This document shows, piece after piece, positions 21,183 to 61,078 of a DNA stretch of 64,000 bases. Below the pieces are notes generated by a model that ran no database searches, had not been told where the DNA came from, and was given only the letters and a program-made list of their open reading frames with translations. The DNA is taken from positions 3,534,001 to 3,598,000 of the forward strand of contig NZ_CP036402.1 in NCBI RefSeq assembly GCF_004322855.1, given 5' to 3'. This stretch comes from Egibacter rhizosphaerae. Its GTDB lineage: Bacteria; Actinomycetota; Nitriliruptoria; Euzebyales; Egibacteraceae. Numbering within the stretch: the first letter of the stretch is position 1; each line of letters begins with the position of its first letter. The position numbers and the translations under genes are program-made.

Positions 21183-21625
<443 letters not shown>

Positions 21626-43937: not shown

Positions 43938-45137
43938 ATGCGTAGCTCGAGAGCCCCGTTGCCCCTGCTGCTCCTGTCGGTACTCGCCTTGCTGCTCCTG
44001 GCGGCGTGCGAGGAGGACGTCGACGACGAGGAGGTCGACGACGACCCCGAGGAGGACGTCGAGGACGATCCGGACGAGGACGACGACGAGCCGGACGAGG
44101 ACGACGAGCCGGACGAGGACGACGAGCCGGACGAGGACGACGAGCCGGACGAGGAAGCCGAGGACACCGACGACGTGGACGCGGAGGCGGCCGAGGGGCC
44201 GGACGTCGAGATCACACTGGCGCACCCCTTCCCCGCCGAGCATCCGATGGCGGTGAACATGCTCGATCCGTGGATGGAGGACGTGGAGGAGCGCACCGGG
44301 GGGACGGTCACGTTCGATGTCCAGCCCGGTGGCGCGTTGTCGCCGCCGGACGAGGTGTACGAGAACGCCGCGGCCGGCGCCTTCGACATGGGCTGGGCGC
44401 TGCACGGCTACACGCCGGGTCGCTTCCCGATCACGCGCCTGGTGGAGTTGCCCTTCGTCTGGGACAGCGCGGAGGACGCCACCGACGGGCTGTGGGACCT
44501 CTACGAGGAGTTCCCCGAGTTCCAGGAGGAGTTCGACGACACCCAGGTCATCGCCCTGTGGGTGCACGACATCGGGGATCTGTTCACCACGGAGCAGCCG
44601 GTCGAGTCACCGTCCGATCTCGAGGGCCTCGAGCTCCGCGCCCCCGGGCCGGAGCAGAGCAACCTCGTCGAGGCGCTCGGCGGGGACGCGCAGGGCCTGC
44701 CCGCGCCCGAGTTGTTCGACGCCCTCGACGGCGGGGTGATCGACGGCCTGATGATCGCGAACTCCGGGCTGAACAGCTTCGATCTCTGGCCGACCCTCGA
44801 GTACGCGACCGTCGGCAGCTTCTACGTGGGTGCGCAGTACGCGGTCATGAACCAGGGCACCTGGGAGGAGCTGTCGGCCGAGCAGCAGCAGGTCATCGAG
44901 GAGACCAGCGGTCGGGAGCTGTCGCTGACCGGCGCGCGCGCCTACGACGAGATCTACGAGGACGTGCAGGCCAGCTTCGAGGAGGAGGGCCTGGAGGTGA
45001 CCGAGCTCGAGGGCGACGAGCTCGACGAGTGGATCGAGGCCACCGACGAGGTCCCCGACGAGTGGATGCAGGACCAGGACCCCGACGTGCCGGCCGAGGA
45101 GATGTACGAGCGTCTCCTCGAGATCAGCGGCCAGTAG
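43938..45137 (+). CDS. TRAP transporter substrate-binding lipoprotein (DctP family)
   Basis: 399 residues. Lipoprotein signal LLLLSVLALLLLAAC, then an extremely acidic spacer built from EPDED repeats (about residues 25-75), then a DctP domain (VEITLAHPFPAEHPMAVNML, DLEGLELRAPGPEQSNLVEALGG, conserved Arg for the carboxylate). Captures a carboxylic acid outside the membrane for the DctQM permease. ATG follows GAGGAGGG. Substrate likely an aromatic or related acid judged by neighbours; not shown by sequence. Confidence 0.9.
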   Translation: MRSSRAPLPLLLLSVLALLLLAACEEDVDDEEVDDDPEEDVEDDPDEDDDEPDEDDEPDEDDEPDEDDEPDEEAEDTDDVDAEAAEGPDVEITLAHPFPAEHPMAVNMLDPWMEDVEERTGGTVTFDVQPGGALSPPDEVYENAAAGAFDMGWALHGYTPGRFPITRLVELPFVWDSAEDATDGLWDLYEEFPEFQEEFDDTQVIALWVHDIGDLFTTEQPVESPSDLEGLELRAPGPEQSNLVEALGGDAQGLPAPELFDALDGGVIDGLMIANSGLNSFDLWPTLEYATVGSFYVGAQYAVMNQGTWEELSAEQQQVIEETSGRELSLTGARAYDEIYEDVQASFEEEGLEVTELEGDELDEWIEATDEVPDEWMQDQDPDVPAEEMYERLLEISGQ

Positions 45138-51079: not shown

Positions 51080-51982
51080 ATGGTGAGCCTTCCCCCGCCC
51101 CTCGAGAGCGACGCCGACGTGCCGGCCTTCGCCGCAGCGCTCGGCGTCGAAGGGCTCGTGGACCTGCACGTGCACTTCATGCCGCAGCGGGTGCTCGAGA
51201 AGGTCTGGGCCTTCTTCGACCGGGTCGAGGATCCCGGCCCGTGGCCCATCCAGTACCGGGAGGACGAAGCCAGCCGTCTCGCGCGCCTGCGGGCGATGGG
51301 CCTTCGGGCCTGGACCGCGCTGAACTACCCGCACAAGCCGGGGATGGCCGAGTGGCTCAACGCCTACAGCGCGGAGCTGGCGGCCGCACACCCCGAGGTG
51401 GTGCACTCCGCCACCTTCTACCCGGAGCCGGAAGCCGACCGTTACGTCGGCGAGGCGCTCGAGCAGGGTGCACGGGTGTTCAAGGTGCACCTGCAGGTCG
51501 GGGGTTACGACCCGCGGCACCCGTGTCTCGCGCCGGTGTGGCGACGGTTGGAGTTCGCCGGGGTGCCGGTCGTCGTCCACTGCGGGTCAGGGCCCCAGCC
51601 GGGGGCGTACACCGGGCCCGGACCGTTCGGTGAGGTGCTCGCCGCCCACCCGGAGCTCGTGGCGGTCATCGCGCACATGGGCGGCCCCGAGTACCGGGAG
51701 TTCCTCGACCTGGCCCTCGCCTACCCGCGGGTGCACCTGGACACGACGATGACGTTCACCGACTTCATGGAGGGCACGCTCGGCTCCGCCTACCCACTGG
51801 AGCTGCGGGACCGGCTCGCCGACGTGCCCGAACGCGTGGTGCTGGGAACCGACTTCCCCAACATCCCCCATCGCTACGCCCACCAGCTCGAGGCGCTGCG
51901 CCGACTCCACCTCGGCCCCGCATGGCTGCGGGCGGTCTGCCACGACAACCCGGCGCGGCTGCTCGGCCTCGCCTCCACGTGA
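51080..51982 (+). CDS. Amidohydrolase family protein (ACMSD-like TIM barrel)
   Basis: 300-residue metal-dependent hydrolase or decarboxylase of the amidohydrolase-2 group. Metal ligands: LVDLHVHFMP (HxH), VFKVHLQVG, VVVHCGSGP, VIAHMGGPEY and VLGTDFPNIP (Asp). Relatives decarboxylate aromatic acids or hydrolyse lactones; the substrate here is not evident. Starts 73 nt after the DICT gene and ends inside a 42-bp tandem repeat. Confidence 0.8.
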   Translation: MVSLPPPLESDADVPAFAAALGVEGLVDLHVHFMPQRVLEKVWAFFDRVEDPGPWPIQYREDEASRLARLRAMGLRAWTALNYPHKPGMAEWLNAYSAELAAAHPEVVHSATFYPEPEADRYVGEALEQGARVFKVHLQVGGYDPRHPCLAPVWRRLEFAGVPVVVHCGSGPQPGAYTGPGPFGEVLAAHPELVAVIAHMGGPEYREFLDLALAYPRVHLDTTMTFTDFMEGTLGSAYPLELRDRLADVPERVVLGTDFPNIPHRYAHQLEALRRLHLGPAWLRAVCHDNPARLLGLAST

Positions 51983-52089
51983 GGTGCGCCGGTGCGAGGT
52001 CACTGCCCCCTCGCTTCCACGTGAGGTGCGCCGGTGCGAGGTCACTGCCCCCTCGCTTCCACGTGAGGTGCGCCGGTGCGAGGTCACTG
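51975..52089. repeat. 42-bp tandem repeat spanning the amidohydrolase stop codon
   Basis: Copies at 51975-52016, 52017-52058 and a partial third at 52059-52089, essentially identical. The first copy contains the TGA stop (51980-51982), so each later copy carries a duplicated stop. The region lies between convergent genes. Confidence 0.9.
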
Positions 52090-52117: not shown

Positions 52118-53515
52118 TCAGCGAGGCGCGGTGACCGCGCGCGGTCGCAGGAGGCTGCCCTGGGTGTACTGCTCCAGGGCGTGGGCGATCCAGCCGGCGC
52201 TGCGACCGATGGCGAACAGGGCCTCGCCCGCGCCGGGTGCCATGCTGCCCAGCGCGCTGACGGCCGCGAGCGCGAGGTCGATGTTGGGCGGAGGCAGTCC
52301 CCGGTCCGCGGCGGCGGTGCGCACGGCCTGTACGCGCGCGAGCCGCGGGTCGTCGGCTGCTGCGTCGCTCGCCAGCTCGAGCAGCCGGCTCGCCCGCGGA
52401 TCGCCGCCGGGGTAGAGCGGCATGCCGAAGCCGGGCGTCTCCTGCCGGCCCCGCATCAGCTCGCCGAGCCGGTGCGGCGCCTCGCCGGGGTCGGCCATCG
52501 CGGCGAACATCCCCTCGAGGGGTCGGGAGGCGCCACCGTGTCGGGGCCCGCTCACCGCCGCGAGGCCGGCGGCCACCGCCGCGTAGGGGTCGCAGCCGGT
52601 GGAGGCGGCCGCTCGCACGGCCACGGTCGAGGGGGCGAGCTCGTGGTCGGCGAGCAGGACCAAGGCCGCGTCGACGAGGTCTCCGGTCGCGCTCGCCGCC
52701 CCGTCACCCGCCAGGCGGGCGGCGATCTCGTCGGCGAGGCGCCCGCTGACCGTGTCGGGCGCCTCGCCTCCCGGCGCGGGCGTCTCGTGCTCCGGTGTGA
52801 GCGCCTCGCCTCCCGGCGCGGGCGTCTCGTGCTCCGGTGTGAGCGCCTCGCCTCCCGGCACGAGCGCGGTCGGCAGGGCAGCGAGCAGCCGACGGGCGGC
52901 GGTGCGCACGGCGTCGGGGCGCAGGTCCCCCCGGAAAGGGTCGGCCGTGGCGAGTGCGGTGGTGGCCAGGGCGAGGCGGTCGCGCGGTGTGGCGTGGGCG
53001 CCCGCTCCGGCCGCGGCCTCACGGCATAGCTCGCGCGAGGCCGGCGTGGCGGGCCAGGTCGGCGCCGACCGAGGCAGCGTGCCGGTCCACAGCAGTTCGG
53101 CGACCGCCTCGAACGGCTGCGCGCCGGCCAGCGTGGCCGCGTCGTGCCCGCGGTAGGCGACGGTGACCCCGTCGATCCAGGTGAGGTCCGAGTAGATGGC
53201 GACCTCGACCGCGTCGGCGCGCGTGCGCTGGCCGCCGCGCCCGCTGGCGGCCAGTCGGGTGACCGCGTCGAGGGGGAAGCGACTCCGACCGTGCGCGTCG
53301 CGGCGTCGTTCGATCCGGCCGCGGCTCACGTACGCGTACAGGGTCTGTGGTTTCACCCCGAGCCGGCGGCAGGCCTCGTCGGAGGGAACCCAGCGATCGC
53401 CGTCCACCAGGTCGCCGTCGCCCGTCGCGTCGCTGTCGCCCATCCCGTCGCTCGCGCCCGTCGCGTCGCTGTCGCCCGTCGCGTCGCTGTCGCCCGTCGC
53501 GTCGCTGTCGCCCAT
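52118..53515 (-). CDS. Citrate synthase-like protein with N-terminal helix-turn-helix
   Basis: 465 residues. A repeat-rich N-terminus (GDSDAT units), then a MerR/excisionase-like HTH about 42-78 (VPSDEACRRLGVKPQTLYAYVSRGRIERRRD), then a citrate-synthase fold. The first catalytic His is kept (GPRHGGASR, about His326), but the second motif, normally GFGHR/P, reads GFGMPLYPGGDPRA with Met365 in place of His. It may be a DNA-binding pseudo-enzyme. Divergent from an intact citrate synthase gene. ATG 53515 follows GGGAGCGGCGAGGGG; residues from an earlier ATG at 53635 would run over the promoter. Confidence 0.82.
   Translation of the reverse strand: MGDSDATGDSDATGDSDATGASDGMGDSDATGDGDLVDGDRWVPSDEACRRLGVKPQTLYAYVSRGRIERRRDAHGRSRFPLDAVTRLAASGRGGQRTRADAVEVAIYSDLTWIDGVTVAYRGHDAATLAGAQPFEAVAELLWTGTLPRSAPTWPATPASRELCREAAAGAGAHATPRDRLALATTALATADPFRGDLRPDAVRTAARRLLAALPTALVPGGEALTPEHETPAPGGEALTPEHETPAPGGEAPDTVSGRLADEIAARLAGDGAASATGDLVDAALVLLADHELAPSTVAVRAAASTGCDPYAAVAAGLAAVSGPRHGGASRPLEGMFAAMADPGEAPHRLGELMRGRQETPGFGMPLYPGGDPRASRLLELASDAAADDPRLARVQAVRTAAADRGLPPPNIDLALAAVSALGSMAPGAGEALFAIGRSAGWIAHALEQYTQGSLLRPRAVTAPR
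52759..52860. repeat. 42-bp in-frame tandem repeat in the HTH-citrate synthase gene
   Basis: Copies 52759-52800 and 52801-52842 plus an 18-bp partial copy, encoding a 14-residue unit PGGEALTPEHETPA in a surface insertion. Length is a multiple of three, so the frame is kept. Confidence 0.85.
53409..53515. repeat. 18-bp repeats encoding GDSDAT at the N-terminus
   Basis: Five or six degenerate copies of an 18-bp unit code for GDSDAT or variants before the HTH. The flexible acidic arm may vary in length between strains. Confidence 0.8.
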
Positions 53516-53627
53516 CCCCTCGCCGCTCCCTCCGGCCCACGATATTGAACATTGATCGAGATTGATTCTACCGAGGGAGCGTCCGACACTGCGGTCGTCG
53601 ATCGGTTCGCCGTCCTCGGAGGCCGCC
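53516..53627. promoter_or_regulatory. Divergent promoter of the two citrate synthase genes
   Basis: An AT-rich island in GC-rich DNA contains ATTGA three times in direct repeat (53544-53548, 53551-53555, 53561-53565). It probably holds both promoters and the operator; the HTH-citrate synthase is a candidate binder. Inference only. Confidence 0.4.
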
Positions 53628-54818
53628 ATGTCCACCCCGACCCCATCTCGCCCCGATGCCGAGTCCGGCCTGGACGTCCCACCCGGCCTGGCCGGCGTGC
53701 GCGTCGTCGAGACCGCGATCGGCGAGGTGCGAGGCAGCGAGGGCCTCCTGTCCTACCGGGGCCTCGATGCCACCCGGCTGGCCCGCGAACGCACCTTCGA
53801 GGAGGTCGCGCACCTCCTCCTCACGGGGCACCTGCCCGGTGCAGCGGAGCACGCCGCGTTCGCGGCCGAGCTCACCTCGGCTCGCGAGTTGCCCGAGCCG
53901 GTCGCCGAGGCCTTGCCGGTGATCGCGCGTGCGTCCGCGGGGCGTCCGCTCGAGGGGGTGCGGTCGGCGCTGTCGATCGCCGCGCCGCTCCTCGGCGCGG
54001 CGCCATGGCAGGACCAGGACCCCGAGGCGCAGCGGGCCGTGGCCGCTCGGCTGATCGGCGTGACGCCGAGCCTGGTGGCCGGACTGCATCGTCTCGCGCG
54101 CGGACTCGCGCCGATCGCCGCCGATCCCGCGCGGGGTCTGGCCAACGACTACCTGCGGCAGCTGACGGGGCGGGACCCCGACGACACGGCGGCTGCCGCC
54201 CTGGAGCGCTACCTGTCGATCGTCGCCGAACACGGGCTGAACGCCTCGACCTTCGCCGCGCGGCTGGTCACCTCGACCGGCGCGGACCTTGGGGCGGCGG
54301 TGACCGCGGCGGCCGGTGCCCTGTCCGGACCGCTGCACGGCGGCGCACCGGGTCGTGCGCTCGAGTTCCTCGACGCGGCCCACGACATCGACGATGCGGA
54401 GCGGCGTGCCCGCGAGGCGGTCGCGCGCGGCGATCGGATCATGGGGTTCGGACACCGGGTGTACCGCACCGCCGACCCCCGGGCGCGGCTGCTGCGCGAG
54501 ACCGCCGAGGAACTCGGCGGGCAGCGGGTGCGGTTCGCCCACGAGGTCGAGGAGCGCGTGGTCGCCACCCTCGCCGAGCTGAAGCCCGGACGCGAGTTGC
54601 ACGCCAACGTCGAGCTGTACGCCGCGGTGGTGATGGAACGGGTGGGCGTCCCCGCGGAGCTGTTCACCCCGACGTTCACGATCGGGCGGATGGCGGGCTG
54701 GTGCGCCCACGCACTCGAACAAGCCGGAACCAACCGCCTCATCCGTCCGAGCGCGGCCTATGTCGGCCCGTCGCCGGGAGTCGCGGAGCACTCGGACGAC
54801 CTGCACGCCCCGGCCTGA
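53628..54818 (+). CDS. Citrate synthase (or 2-methylcitrate synthase)
   Basis: 396 residues, short type I form, condensing acetyl-CoA (or propionyl-CoA) with oxaloacetate. All catalytic elements are present: EHGLNASTFAAR, GPLHGGAPGRALE, MGFGHRVYRTADPRA and a late Asp region in the C-terminal third, ending FTIGRMAGWCAHALEQ. ATG 53628 follows GGAGG; an earlier start at 53562 would cover promoter sequence. No prpB/prpD nearby, so citrate synthase activity is the simpler guess. Confidence 0.88.
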   Translation: MSTPTPSRPDAESGLDVPPGLAGVRVVETAIGEVRGSEGLLSYRGLDATRLARERTFEEVAHLLLTGHLPGAAEHAAFAAELTSARELPEPVAEALPVIARASAGRPLEGVRSALSIAAPLLGAAPWQDQDPEAQRAVAARLIGVTPSLVAGLHRLARGLAPIAADPARGLANDYLRQLTGRDPDDTAAAALERYLSIVAEHGLNASTFAARLVTSTGADLGAAVTAAAGALSGPLHGGAPGRALEFLDAAHDIDDAERRAREAVARGDRIMGFGHRVYRTADPRARLLRETAEELGGQRVRFAHEVEERVVATLAELKPGRELHANVELYAAVVMERVGVPAELFTPTFTIGRMAGWCAHALEQAGTNRLIRPSAAYVGPSPGVAEHSDDLHAPA

Positions 54819-56232: not shown

Positions 56233-56976
56233 ATGGGTGCGCTGCTCGTGACTCTCGCGGTGGCCGGCACGGTCATGCACCTGGCGTTCACGTGGGGCCT
56301 CGCGCGACCCCCCGCGTCGCCGGTACCCGACCGCGCCGCCTACTTCGCGCGCTGGTCGGCCCTGCACGGTGGCTACGACCCGGCGGACAACGTGTGGGTG
56401 CGCGGCTGGCTGTCGGTCGCCTACGCGCTGGCGCGCCCGCTCGCGCGCCGTGGGGTGCACCCGGACCTGCTGACCGGGGCCACGGTGTGGCTCGCGCTCG
56501 TGGCGCTCGCGACGGCGGAGGCCGGGGGCCGCTGGCCCCTGCTGGGGGTGGTCGCGCTGGTCGCGAGCGGGCTGGGCGATGCGGTCGACGGGGCGGTCGC
56601 CACGCTCACCGAGCGCGCGACCCGCTGGGGGTACGTGCTCGACTCGCTGATCGACCGCGTCACGGACGTGCTGTTCGTGGCTGCGCTGTGGCGGCTGGGC
56701 GCTCCCCTGGAGCTCGCCGCCGCATCGGCGGTCATCGCGCTGCTGCTGGACTACCTGCGGGCGCGCGCGTCGAACGCTGGCGCGGGGGAGATCGGCACGA
56801 TCACCGTCGGCGAGCGCGCGACCCGGGTGATTCTCGCGGCCCTCGGCCTGCTCGCGGCGGGCGTGGCCCCCGCCGCGGCGGCCTCGCTGGCTACTGCGAG
56901 CGTCGCCGTGTTGTCGGTGCTGCTGCTCGCCGGCCTGGTCCATTTGCTCGTGGCGGTCCATGGGCGCGTGCGATGA
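56233..56976 (+). CDS. CDP-alcohol phosphatidyltransferase family protein
   Basis: 247 residues, about six membrane helices, making a phospholipid head group by displacing CMP. The signature DG-x2-AR-x8-G-x3-D-x3-D appears as DGAVATLTERATRWGYVLDSLID; the usual Arg is Thr, while both Asp pairs are kept. Alcohol substrate unknown. The stop codon begins a 26-bp tandem repeat. Confidence 0.83.
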   Translation: MGALLVTLAVAGTVMHLAFTWGLARPPASPVPDRAAYFARWSALHGGYDPADNVWVRGWLSVAYALARPLARRGVHPDLLTGATVWLALVALATAEAGGRWPLLGVVALVASGLGDAVDGAVATLTERATRWGYVLDSLIDRVTDVLFVAALWRLGAPLELAAASAVIALLLDYLRARASNAGAGEIGTITVGERATRVILAALGLLAAGVAPAAAASLATASVAVLSVLLLAGLVHLLVAVHGRVR

Positions 56977-57047
56977 GCGGGTTCGCGCGGCGGGTGCGTT
57001 GAGCGGGTTCGCGCGGCGGGTGCGCTGAGCGGGCTCGCGCGGCGGGT
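56974..57047. repeat. 26-bp tandem repeats starting at a stop codon
   Basis: Three copies (56974-56999, 57000-57025, 57026 to about 57047), each beginning TGAGCGGG. The first TGA is the stop of the CDP-alcohol phosphatidyltransferase gene. Confidence 0.85.
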
Positions 57048-57150
57048 GTGCGAGTGGCTCGCGCAGGGGCGCGCGGGTGCGCGAGGATGCGGCGCGTCGC
57101 CGGGCCCGGCCGACGTTGTGACCCAGCCGACGCGAGCGACTCGAACGACG

Positions 57151-57235
57151 CACGGCCCGCACGACAACGGCCCGCACGACACGGCCCACACGACACGGCC
57201 CACACGACACGGCCCACACGACACGGCCCACACGA
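57151..57235. repeat. 14-bp tandem repeats upstream of hyuA
   Basis: Six CACGGCCCRCACGA units (57151-57164; a 15-nt copy 57165-57179; then 57180-57193, 57194-57207, 57208-57221, 57222-57235) just before the hyuA GTG and its GAGAGGGAG ribosome site. They lie in the leader or promoter, where copy number could affect expression. Confidence 0.85.
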
Positions 57236-59293: not shown

Positions 59294-60994
59294 ATGACCG
59301 ACGGACCGGGGATGGACGCCGTGGAGCTCGAGGTCGTCCGCCACGCCCTCGCGGGCGTCGCCGAGGAGATGGGGGCCGCGCTGCGCCGCGCGGCCTACTC
59401 GCCGAACATCAAGGAGCGCGTCGATTGCTCCGCCGCCGTGTTCGACCCCGACGGCCGCATGGTGGCGCAGGCCGAGCACATCCCGGTGCACCTCGGGTCG
59501 ATGCCCGCCTCGGTGGCCGCGGCACTGGACGCGTTCGGCCCGCTGGCTCCCGGCGACCAGGTCGCGCTCAACGACCCGTACCGCGGCGGCACGCACCTGC
59601 CCGACCTCACCGTCGTGGCCGCCGTGGGAGACGACACCGACGCCGCGGGCGGGCACCTGCTCGGCTACGTCGCCAACCGCGCCCACCACGCGGATGTGGG
59701 CGGCGCCGCCCCCGGCTCCATGCCGGCCGATGCGGTCGACGTCGCGATGGAGGGGGTGCGCGTGCCGCCCGTGCGCATCGGGGACGCCGCCGGCATGCGC
59801 GACGACGTGCTCGAGCTCATCGCCGCGAACAGCCGCACCCCCGCCGAACGCCGCGGCGACCTGCGGGCCCAGCTCGCGGCGAATCACGTCGGGGCGCGGC
59901 GACTGCGGGAGCTCGCCGCCGCCCGGGGCTCGCGCGGCCTCGCGCGCGCGATGGCCGAGGTCCGCGCCTACTCCGACCGGCGCGTGCGTGCCGCGGTGCG
60001 GGAGATCCCCGACGGGACCTACACCTTCACCGACGTGCTCGAGGTCGACGCGCCACCGCTCACGCGCACCAGCGAGTCCCGGGCCGCCCCGGAGGGTGAG
60101 GCCGGCACCAGCGAGTCCCGGGCCGCCCCGGAGGGTGAGGCCGGCACCAGCGAGTCCGGGGAGGGTGAGGTCGGACCCGGAGAGGTGCCGATCCGCGTCG
60201 AGGTGACGGTCGCCGGCGATCGGGTCACCGCGGACTTCGCCGGCAGCGCGCTACAGGTCGCCGCGCCGATCAACGCCGTGCGGGCCGTCACCCTGTCGAG
60301 CGCCTACTTCGTGTTCCGCATGCTCACCGATCCCGACGCGCCGCCGAACGACGGCTGCTACGACGCGCTCGAGGTGCGCACGCCCGCCGGGTCGGTGGTC
60401 GACGCGGCCTTTCCCGCGCCGGTCGCCGCCGGCAACGTCGAGACGAGCCAGCGCATCGTCGACGTCCTGCTCGGCGCGTTCGCGCAGGCGGTTGCCGACG
60501 GGGTTCCCGCCGCGAGCCAGGGCACGATGAACAACCTCCTCCTCGGGGCCGCGAGTCCGGGGTTCAGCTACTACGAGACCCTCGGCGGGGGTGAGGGCGG
60601 GACCCCCTTCCGCGCGGGGATGCACGGGGTGCACACCGGGATGACGAACACCAAGAACACGCCGGCCGAGGCGATGGAGCTGGCCTACCCGCTGCGGGTC
60701 CGGTGCTACGAGCTGCGCCAGGGCTCGGGCGGGGTGGGTGCCCACCCGGGCGGCGAGGGTCTGGTCCGCGAGGTCGAGGTCACCACCGACGCGACGCTCA
60801 CACTGCAGACCGAGCGCCGGGCCCGCGGTCCCTGGGGCCTTGCCGGCGGTGACGACGGGGCGCCGGGCCGCAACACGATCGTGCGCGCCGACGGCTCGGA
60901 GGAACAGCTGCCGGCCAAGGGCACCTGGACGCTGCACGCCGGCGACCGTGTGCGCGTCGAGACCCCCGGGGCGGGCGGCTGGGGACCCGCCTAG
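59294..60994 (+). CDS. hyuB: Hydantoinase/oxoprolinase subunit B
   Basis: 566 residues, 55 nt after hyuA. Family features: AAYSPNIKERVDCSAAVFD, HIPVHLGSMP, DPYRGGTHLPDLTVVA, PSQ-like ASQGTMNNLLLG and YYETLGGGEGG, and a Gly-rich end (GSGGVGAHPGGEGLVREVE). With subunit A it would hydrolyse a cyclic amide such as 5-oxoproline or a hydantoin, using ATP. An insertion at about residues 257-290 is made of 13-residue repeats. Its stop lies within a 25-bp tandem repeat. Confidence 0.9.
   Translation: MTDGPGMDAVELEVVRHALAGVAEEMGAALRRAAYSPNIKERVDCSAAVFDPDGRMVAQAEHIPVHLGSMPASVAAALDAFGPLAPGDQVALNDPYRGGTHLPDLTVVAAVGDDTDAAGGHLLGYVANRAHHADVGGAAPGSMPADAVDVAMEGVRVPPVRIGDAAGMRDDVLELIAANSRTPAERRGDLRAQLAANHVGARRLRELAAARGSRGLARAMAEVRAYSDRRVRAAVREIPDGTYTFTDVLEVDAPPLTRTSESRAAPEGEAGTSESRAAPEGEAGTSESGEGEVGPGEVPIRVEVTVAGDRVTADFAGSALQVAAPINAVRAVTLSSAYFVFRMLTDPDAPPNDGCYDALEVRTPAGSVVDAAFPAPVAAGNVETSQRIVDVLLGAFAQAVADGVPAASQGTMNNLLLGAASPGFSYYETLGGGEGGTPFRAGMHGVHTGMTNTKNTPAEAMELAYPLRVRCYELRQGSGGVGAHPGGEGLVREVEVTTDATLTLQTERRARGPWGLAGGDDGAPGRNTIVRADGSEEQLPAKGTWTLHAGDRVRVETPGAGGWGPA
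60067..60160. repeat. 39-bp in-frame repeat inside hyuB
   Basis: Two near-identical 39-bp copies plus a partial third encode the 13-residue unit TSESRAAPEGEAG, an acidic disordered insert. Confidence 0.8.
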
Positions 60995-61078
60995 GGCGGG
61001 CGGCTGGGGATCCGCCTAGGGCGGGCGGCTGGGGACCCGCCTAGGGCGGGCGGCTGGGGATCCGCTTCGGGCGGGCGG
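60970..61078. repeat. 25-bp tandem repeats spanning the hyuB stop codon
   Basis: Copies at 60970-60994 (ending in the hyuB TAG), 60995-61019, 61020-61044 and 61045-61069 (CCTAG changed to CTTCG), and a 9-bp partial copy. The copies differ by C/T changes only. Confidence 0.9.

Follow-up and report, generated by a model that had tools for sequence, protein, structure and literature searches.

A protein of Egibacter rhizosphaerae in which a helix-turn-helix (HTH) is joined to a citrate-synthase domain (HTH-CS) belongs to a family that is quite probably made up of one-component local transcription regulators, with the citrate-synthase fold serving as the sensor. This reading is well supported by genomic evidence, namely the conserved divergent pairing of the HTH-CS gene with its presumed target and a conserved operator. 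The protein was found in a 64-kb stretch of DNA (hereafter the window, meaning the whole stretch analysed), in which the HTH-CS gene lies at 52118..53515 on the minus strand and encodes 465 residues from the preferred ATG at 53515. The open frame reaches 53635 (ORF 52118-53635), but the ATG is the likely start rather than the upstream GTG because a purine-rich stretch lies upstream of it and the GTG extension would overlap the start of the neighbouring gene.

The fusion reported by the first-pass annotation is borne out by profile matches on a single chain. The DNA-binding head (53243..53380, minus strand; residues 86–131 of the ORF) matches HTH_17 with an E-value of 5e-7 and a score of 30.3 against a cut-off of 27, and includes the sequence TLYAYVSRG, while the Citrate_synt match (52139..53200, minus strand; residues 146–499) has an E-value of 2e-58. 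Assignment to the MerR families was rejected, as both scores fall below the curated cut-offs (MerR, 25.0 against 28.2; MerR_1, 20.8 against 21.6). AlphaFold2, run with 40 sequences, predicts a small helix-turn-helix head (helices 6–13 and 17–25, strand 39–42, helix 43–55) followed by a citrate-synthase fold, with a mean pLDDT of 89 and a pTM of 0.81; confidence is low in the linker and in an insert encoded by a tandem repeat. The best Foldseek match is methylcitrate synthase 3hwk (E 3e-16), the best 50 matches listed are all methylcitrate or citrate synthases, and a sequence search of the PDB returned, among the matches listed, only citrate-synthase-superfamily enzymes.

The active site of the window protein is altered at one position. 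As the first-pass annotation had noted, the catalytic, oxaloacetate-binding His of the GFGH motif (H305 in E. coli, H320 in pig) is replaced by Met (codon 52421..52423, minus strand), giving GFGM. The oxaloacetate His, the HGG His, the Asp and the three Arg of the active site are retained, so that of the catalytic His, His and Asp only the second His is missing; the C-terminus is also shortened and without the usual YxG. Two tandem repeats lie within the gene (both minus strand): an 18-bp repeat (53411..53530) that encodes GDSDAT units in the N-terminal tail, and the 42-bp repeat PGGEALTPEHETPA (52759..52867) that produces the insert, in a stretch where the citrate-synthase domain is variable. 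High-identity tandem repeats with periods of 14–42 bp, several of them in or beside genes, look recently expanded in this genome; besides these two, the window has others at 51967-52089, 56963-57048, 57151-57235, 60066-60161 and 60969-61078. Further tandem repeats at 21288-21372 and 44009-44175 have GAC/GAG-rich units, which would give Asp/Glu-rich stretches if translated in that frame.

The divergent neighbour, a second citrate synthase as first described, is a CitA-type enzyme of 396 residues (53628..54818, plus strand) and the presumed target of the regulator. It matches NCBIfam PRK12350 with 342.7 bits against a cut-off of 332, and the closest solved structure is B. subtilis CitA (2c6x). 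The statement that this neighbour keeps all catalytic residues needs correcting, since Glu329 (NVE; codon 54612..54614, plus strand) stands in the place of the catalytic Asp (D362 in E. coli, D375 in pig). The same Glu is present in B. subtilis CitA and M. tuberculosis CitA (6wgy) and in 109/109 scorable CitA-type partners; Glu for Asp is normal for enzymes of this type. The two CitA proteins of known structure have no HTH and belong with the partner, not with HTH-CS. Elsewhere, at 243 kb, the genome encodes one more citrate synthase, its third, of the ordinary kind. A simple promoter and terminator scan of the region between HTH-CS and its partner found nothing.

The residue survey covered 174 distinct HTH-CS sequences, which came from plasmids, from named genomes and from searches of further genomes. 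In a tree of citrate synthases the HTH-CS proteins make up one side of a branch with an SH-aLRT of 100, which shows the combination of HTH_17 and citrate synthase to define, at the level of sequence, a monophyletic family; the window protein lies inside this clade and joins locus L005 with a support of 89. The TLYAYVSRG sequence of the HTH, present in the window copy, hardly varies between Actinomycetota, Proteobacteria and Deinococcus. Conservation of the active site is nearly perfect (His 171/174, GFGH His 169/174, Asp 171/174). The site is strongly constrained, as a dead enzyme's would not be, and this agrees with either ligand sensing or retained catalysis. What sets the family apart from its partners is loss of the basic residue that in pig and E. 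coli citrate synthase contacts the CoA phosphates (E. coli K310 position): Arg or Lys occupies it in 109/111 partners vs 21/174 HTH-CS proteins, which mostly have Pro or Thr. The active-site Asn is often lost as well (Ala, Pro or another residue in 103/174), and the oxaloacetate-binding residues stay.

Substitution of the GFGH His is confined to five members, with Met in the window protein and in L084, Gln in two and Gly in one. L084, from an Acidimicrobiales MAG, is missing two further residues, and a clade sharing the Met was ruled out: the two proteins lie apart in the tree, so Met arose twice, independently, and that of the window copy is private to it. Loss of an active-site His or Asp is sporadic across unrelated members, several of which retain the operator; L084, L155 and L186 have lost the GFGH His and kept the operator core. 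Loss of this His, which the first-pass annotation took as the mark of an enzyme turned sensor, can be discarded as a hallmark and does not define a switch to sensing, since the survey that it called for finds the residue in most relatives. Its idea of a regulator that may act on the divergent paralogue is supported on other grounds, the conserved pairing and operator.

Alignment of the intergenic regions revealed the promoter motif TTGAY-N3-8-RTCAA-N2-TTGAY, with a palindromic core (RTCAANNTTGAY), in Actinomycetota, Proteobacteria, Deinococcus and Dormibacterota. The strict motif has 171 matches in 176 HTH-CS loci, 165 of which fall no more than 300 bp from the start of an HTH-CS gene (106 kb in all) and six in the 1.03 Mb beyond, so that sites near HTH-CS starts are enriched 268-fold. 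Read from their coordinates, the six outlying matches belong to loci with altered gene order and lie at or beside the 5' end of a target gene: near the 5' end of CitA in L005, L074, L080, L143 and L146, and in Burkholderia (L065) at the head of an operon whose last gene is HTH-CS. The motif goes with HTH-CS, as it is not restricted to loci with a divergent CitA gene and is found also with genes for homocitrate-synthase-like HMGL enzymes, family III CoA transferases, DUF2332 proteins and the transporter gudP. It is missing at a few HTH-CS genes (e.g. L036, L058, L070, L102).

Across 396 Actinomycetota genomes the motif lies beside HTH-CS in 30 of the 37 that carry the gene, with one site elsewhere in those 37, and at least one site occurs in 63 of the other 359 genomes, many of them small. 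Four of eight checked sites (picked by eye, not at random) in genomes with no HTH-CS match at the cut-off adjoined an overlooked HTH-CS gene. With about one site per genome, a large HTH-CS regulon is not supported. At G035:C37:7880-7913 (L217) two operator copies on opposite strands partly overlap, with no HTH-CS within 2 kb.

The candidate operator of the window, ATCAA-TC-TCGAT-CAATG-TTCAA (53545..53566, minus strand), matches 13/15 positions of RTCAA-N2-TTGAY-N5-RTCAA. No other place in the 64 kb scores as high against the operator matrix (20.2, the next outside the promoter scoring 8.6), and it is among the three sites in 4.64 Mb that fit the fixed-spacer motif with at most two mismatches; the strict motif is absent from the whole genome, the window site having two mismatches. 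As its score lies below the 5th percentile of typical sites (23.9), the operator is weaker than usual and regulation here may be weaker or altered. Given that the arrangement persists alongside a worn operator and the Met substitution, the window protein probably still binds DNA, and efficient citrate synthesis by it is unlikely.

The divergent pair of HTH-CS and CitA-type genes is found in most Actinomycetota and Alphaproteobacteria examined, and also in Caulobacteraceae. A CtrA sequence used as bait led to 199 Caulobacteraceae-like genomes. Of these, 163 match the HTH-CS profile with an E-value no higher than 1e-40, a threshold that may let CitA-type proteins through as well. Elsewhere the divergent gene encodes a homocitrate-synthase-like HMGL enzyme (Streptosporangiales, Actinomadura, Deinococcus, Dormibacterota), a family III CoA transferase, a DUF2332 protein, an aldehyde dehydrogenase or a glucarate/glycerate transporter (gudP). 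Local regulators are typically arranged in this way, and many of the targets act on acetyl-CoA, 2-oxo acids or CoA esters. In L067, L178 and L179 HTH-CS is divergent from DUF2332, of unknown function, with the operator between. In Streptosporangiales, Actinomadura and Asanoa (L069, L075, L076 and others) the divergent gene encodes a NifV-like homologue of homocitrate synthase; nitrogen fixation is not expected of these organisms. No HTH-CS was found in 20 other sampled genomes of the window organism's family.

Enzyme-derived one-component regulators such as BirA, PutA and NadR combine an enzyme fold with a DNA-binding domain and control related metabolism. HTH-CS resembles them in its fusion, although these proteins are bifunctional and for HTH-CS catalysis is putative; we know of no such regulator with a citrate-synthase fold. 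Since the citrate-synthase core is an obligate dimer, two HTH heads would be presented to the palindromic core RTCAANNTTGAY, and the third half-site of the operator may help binding. A ligand, which could be oxaloacetate, an acyl-CoA or citrate, would move the small domain as in the open-closed transition of the enzyme, and this closure would change the affinity of HTH-CS for DNA, adjusting expression of its own gene and of the divergent enzyme.

The architecture and the gene pair are already visible in annotation under enzyme names. In S. coelicolor, SCO5831/SCO5832 (citA3/citA4) form a divergent pair annotated as a citrate-synthase-like protein and a citrate synthase, both treated as enzymes, with no operator or regulator role proposed (PMC12323332, PMC9739823). 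The Streptomyces loci surveyed here are alike in having HTH-CS divergent from CitA, with the operator; unlike the window protein, relatives keep GFGH. Of the adjacent Caulobacter pair CitB and CitC (CCNA_03757/CCNA_03758; 37% and 32% identical to B. subtilis CitA), CitB rescues an E. coli gltA mutant and CitC fails to do so; an HTH is not mentioned (PMC7083601). Our Caulobacteraceae pairs show the same pattern over the best segment, with partners 35–39% and most HTH-CS proteins about 31–34% identical to B. subtilis CitA, and from this pattern and the gene order CitC is very probably an HTH-CS; the NdeI-EcoRI arms of the citB/citC double deletion, we infer, are joined as expected for divergent genes. 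The protein with a regulatory role in that study is CitA, another citrate synthase that acts on the cell cycle independently of catalysis (PMC7083601). The open-licence full texts searched described no citrate-synthase-based transcription factor or HTH-CS operator, nor any experiment in which DNA binding, ligand binding or expression of an HTH-CS was examined. What is new here, relative to that literature, is the proposed regulator role and the operator, and with them a probable enzyme-derived regulator with a new sensor fold.

A nearly invariant active site could also mean catalysis, and PutA and BirA are models for trigger enzymes that bind DNA. HTH-CS proteins might likewise combine DNA binding with activity as citrate, methylcitrate or related synthases, with the activity lost or changed in the window copy, an account to which we give some, though limited, credence and which is possible for members other than the window copy. 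It would explain why the oxaloacetate-binding and catalytic residues are so well kept and why the fold best matches methylcitrate synthases. It sits poorly with the replacement of the CoA-phosphate residue and of the Asn, with the retention of the operator core by several members that have lost catalytic residues, and with the failure of CitC, inferred to be an HTH-CS, to complement gltA (PMC7083601). We think it unlikely that the window HTH-CS is simply decaying under relaxed selection and no longer regulates. The Met, the worn operator with no strict copy in the genome, the repeats in both the N-terminal tail and the citrate-synthase domain, the short C-terminus and the lack of HTH-CS in other sampled members of the organism's family are what decay would leave, yet the 465-codon frame is open, the other active-site residues and TLYAYVSRG are retained, the operator is still the best site in the window and the fold is predicted with confidence.

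Two further explanations appear very improbable. The motif might be read by another regulator, with HTH-CS incidental; MtrA does bind the SCO5831-SCO5832 intergenic region in S. coelicolor, but at TTGACTTAACTGTCCA, which differs from the operator motif (PMC12323332), and the motif tracks HTH-CS across phyla and different targets while being essentially single-copy in each genome. Alternatively, HTH-CS and the CitA-type protein might form a hetero-oligomer in which one completes the active site of the other, as their divergent co-inheritance and complementary residues (the partner has Glu where HTH-CS has Asp) might be taken to indicate; against this, HTH-CS also adjoins genes other than CitA, and Caulobacter CitB works alone in E. 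coli (PMC7083601).

For the family as a whole we lean towards a broader form of the regulator reading: transcription factors that respond to a ligand, spread over several phyla and at least hundreds of species and annotated as citrate synthase, that would sense through a nearly intact citrate-synthase active site and act through one operator on switchable targets (CitA-type citrate synthase, homocitrate-synthase-like enzymes, CoA transferases), with active-site drift in some lineages, including that of the window, where the ligand has perhaps changed. With family, partner and operator defined, the idea is testable in Streptomyces or Caulobacter by ordinary methods. The partner genes offer a lead on the homocitrate-synthase-like enzymes of Actinomycetota and on DUF2332, whose pairing with HTH-CS hints at a function in CoA or organic-acid metabolism. 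Genome annotation and metabolic models at present treat members of the family as citrate synthases. If the reading is correct, a dedicated regulator would read acetyl-CoA/oxaloacetate status with the very fold that consumes these metabolites, and HTH-CS would set the expression of alternative citrate-forming enzymes.
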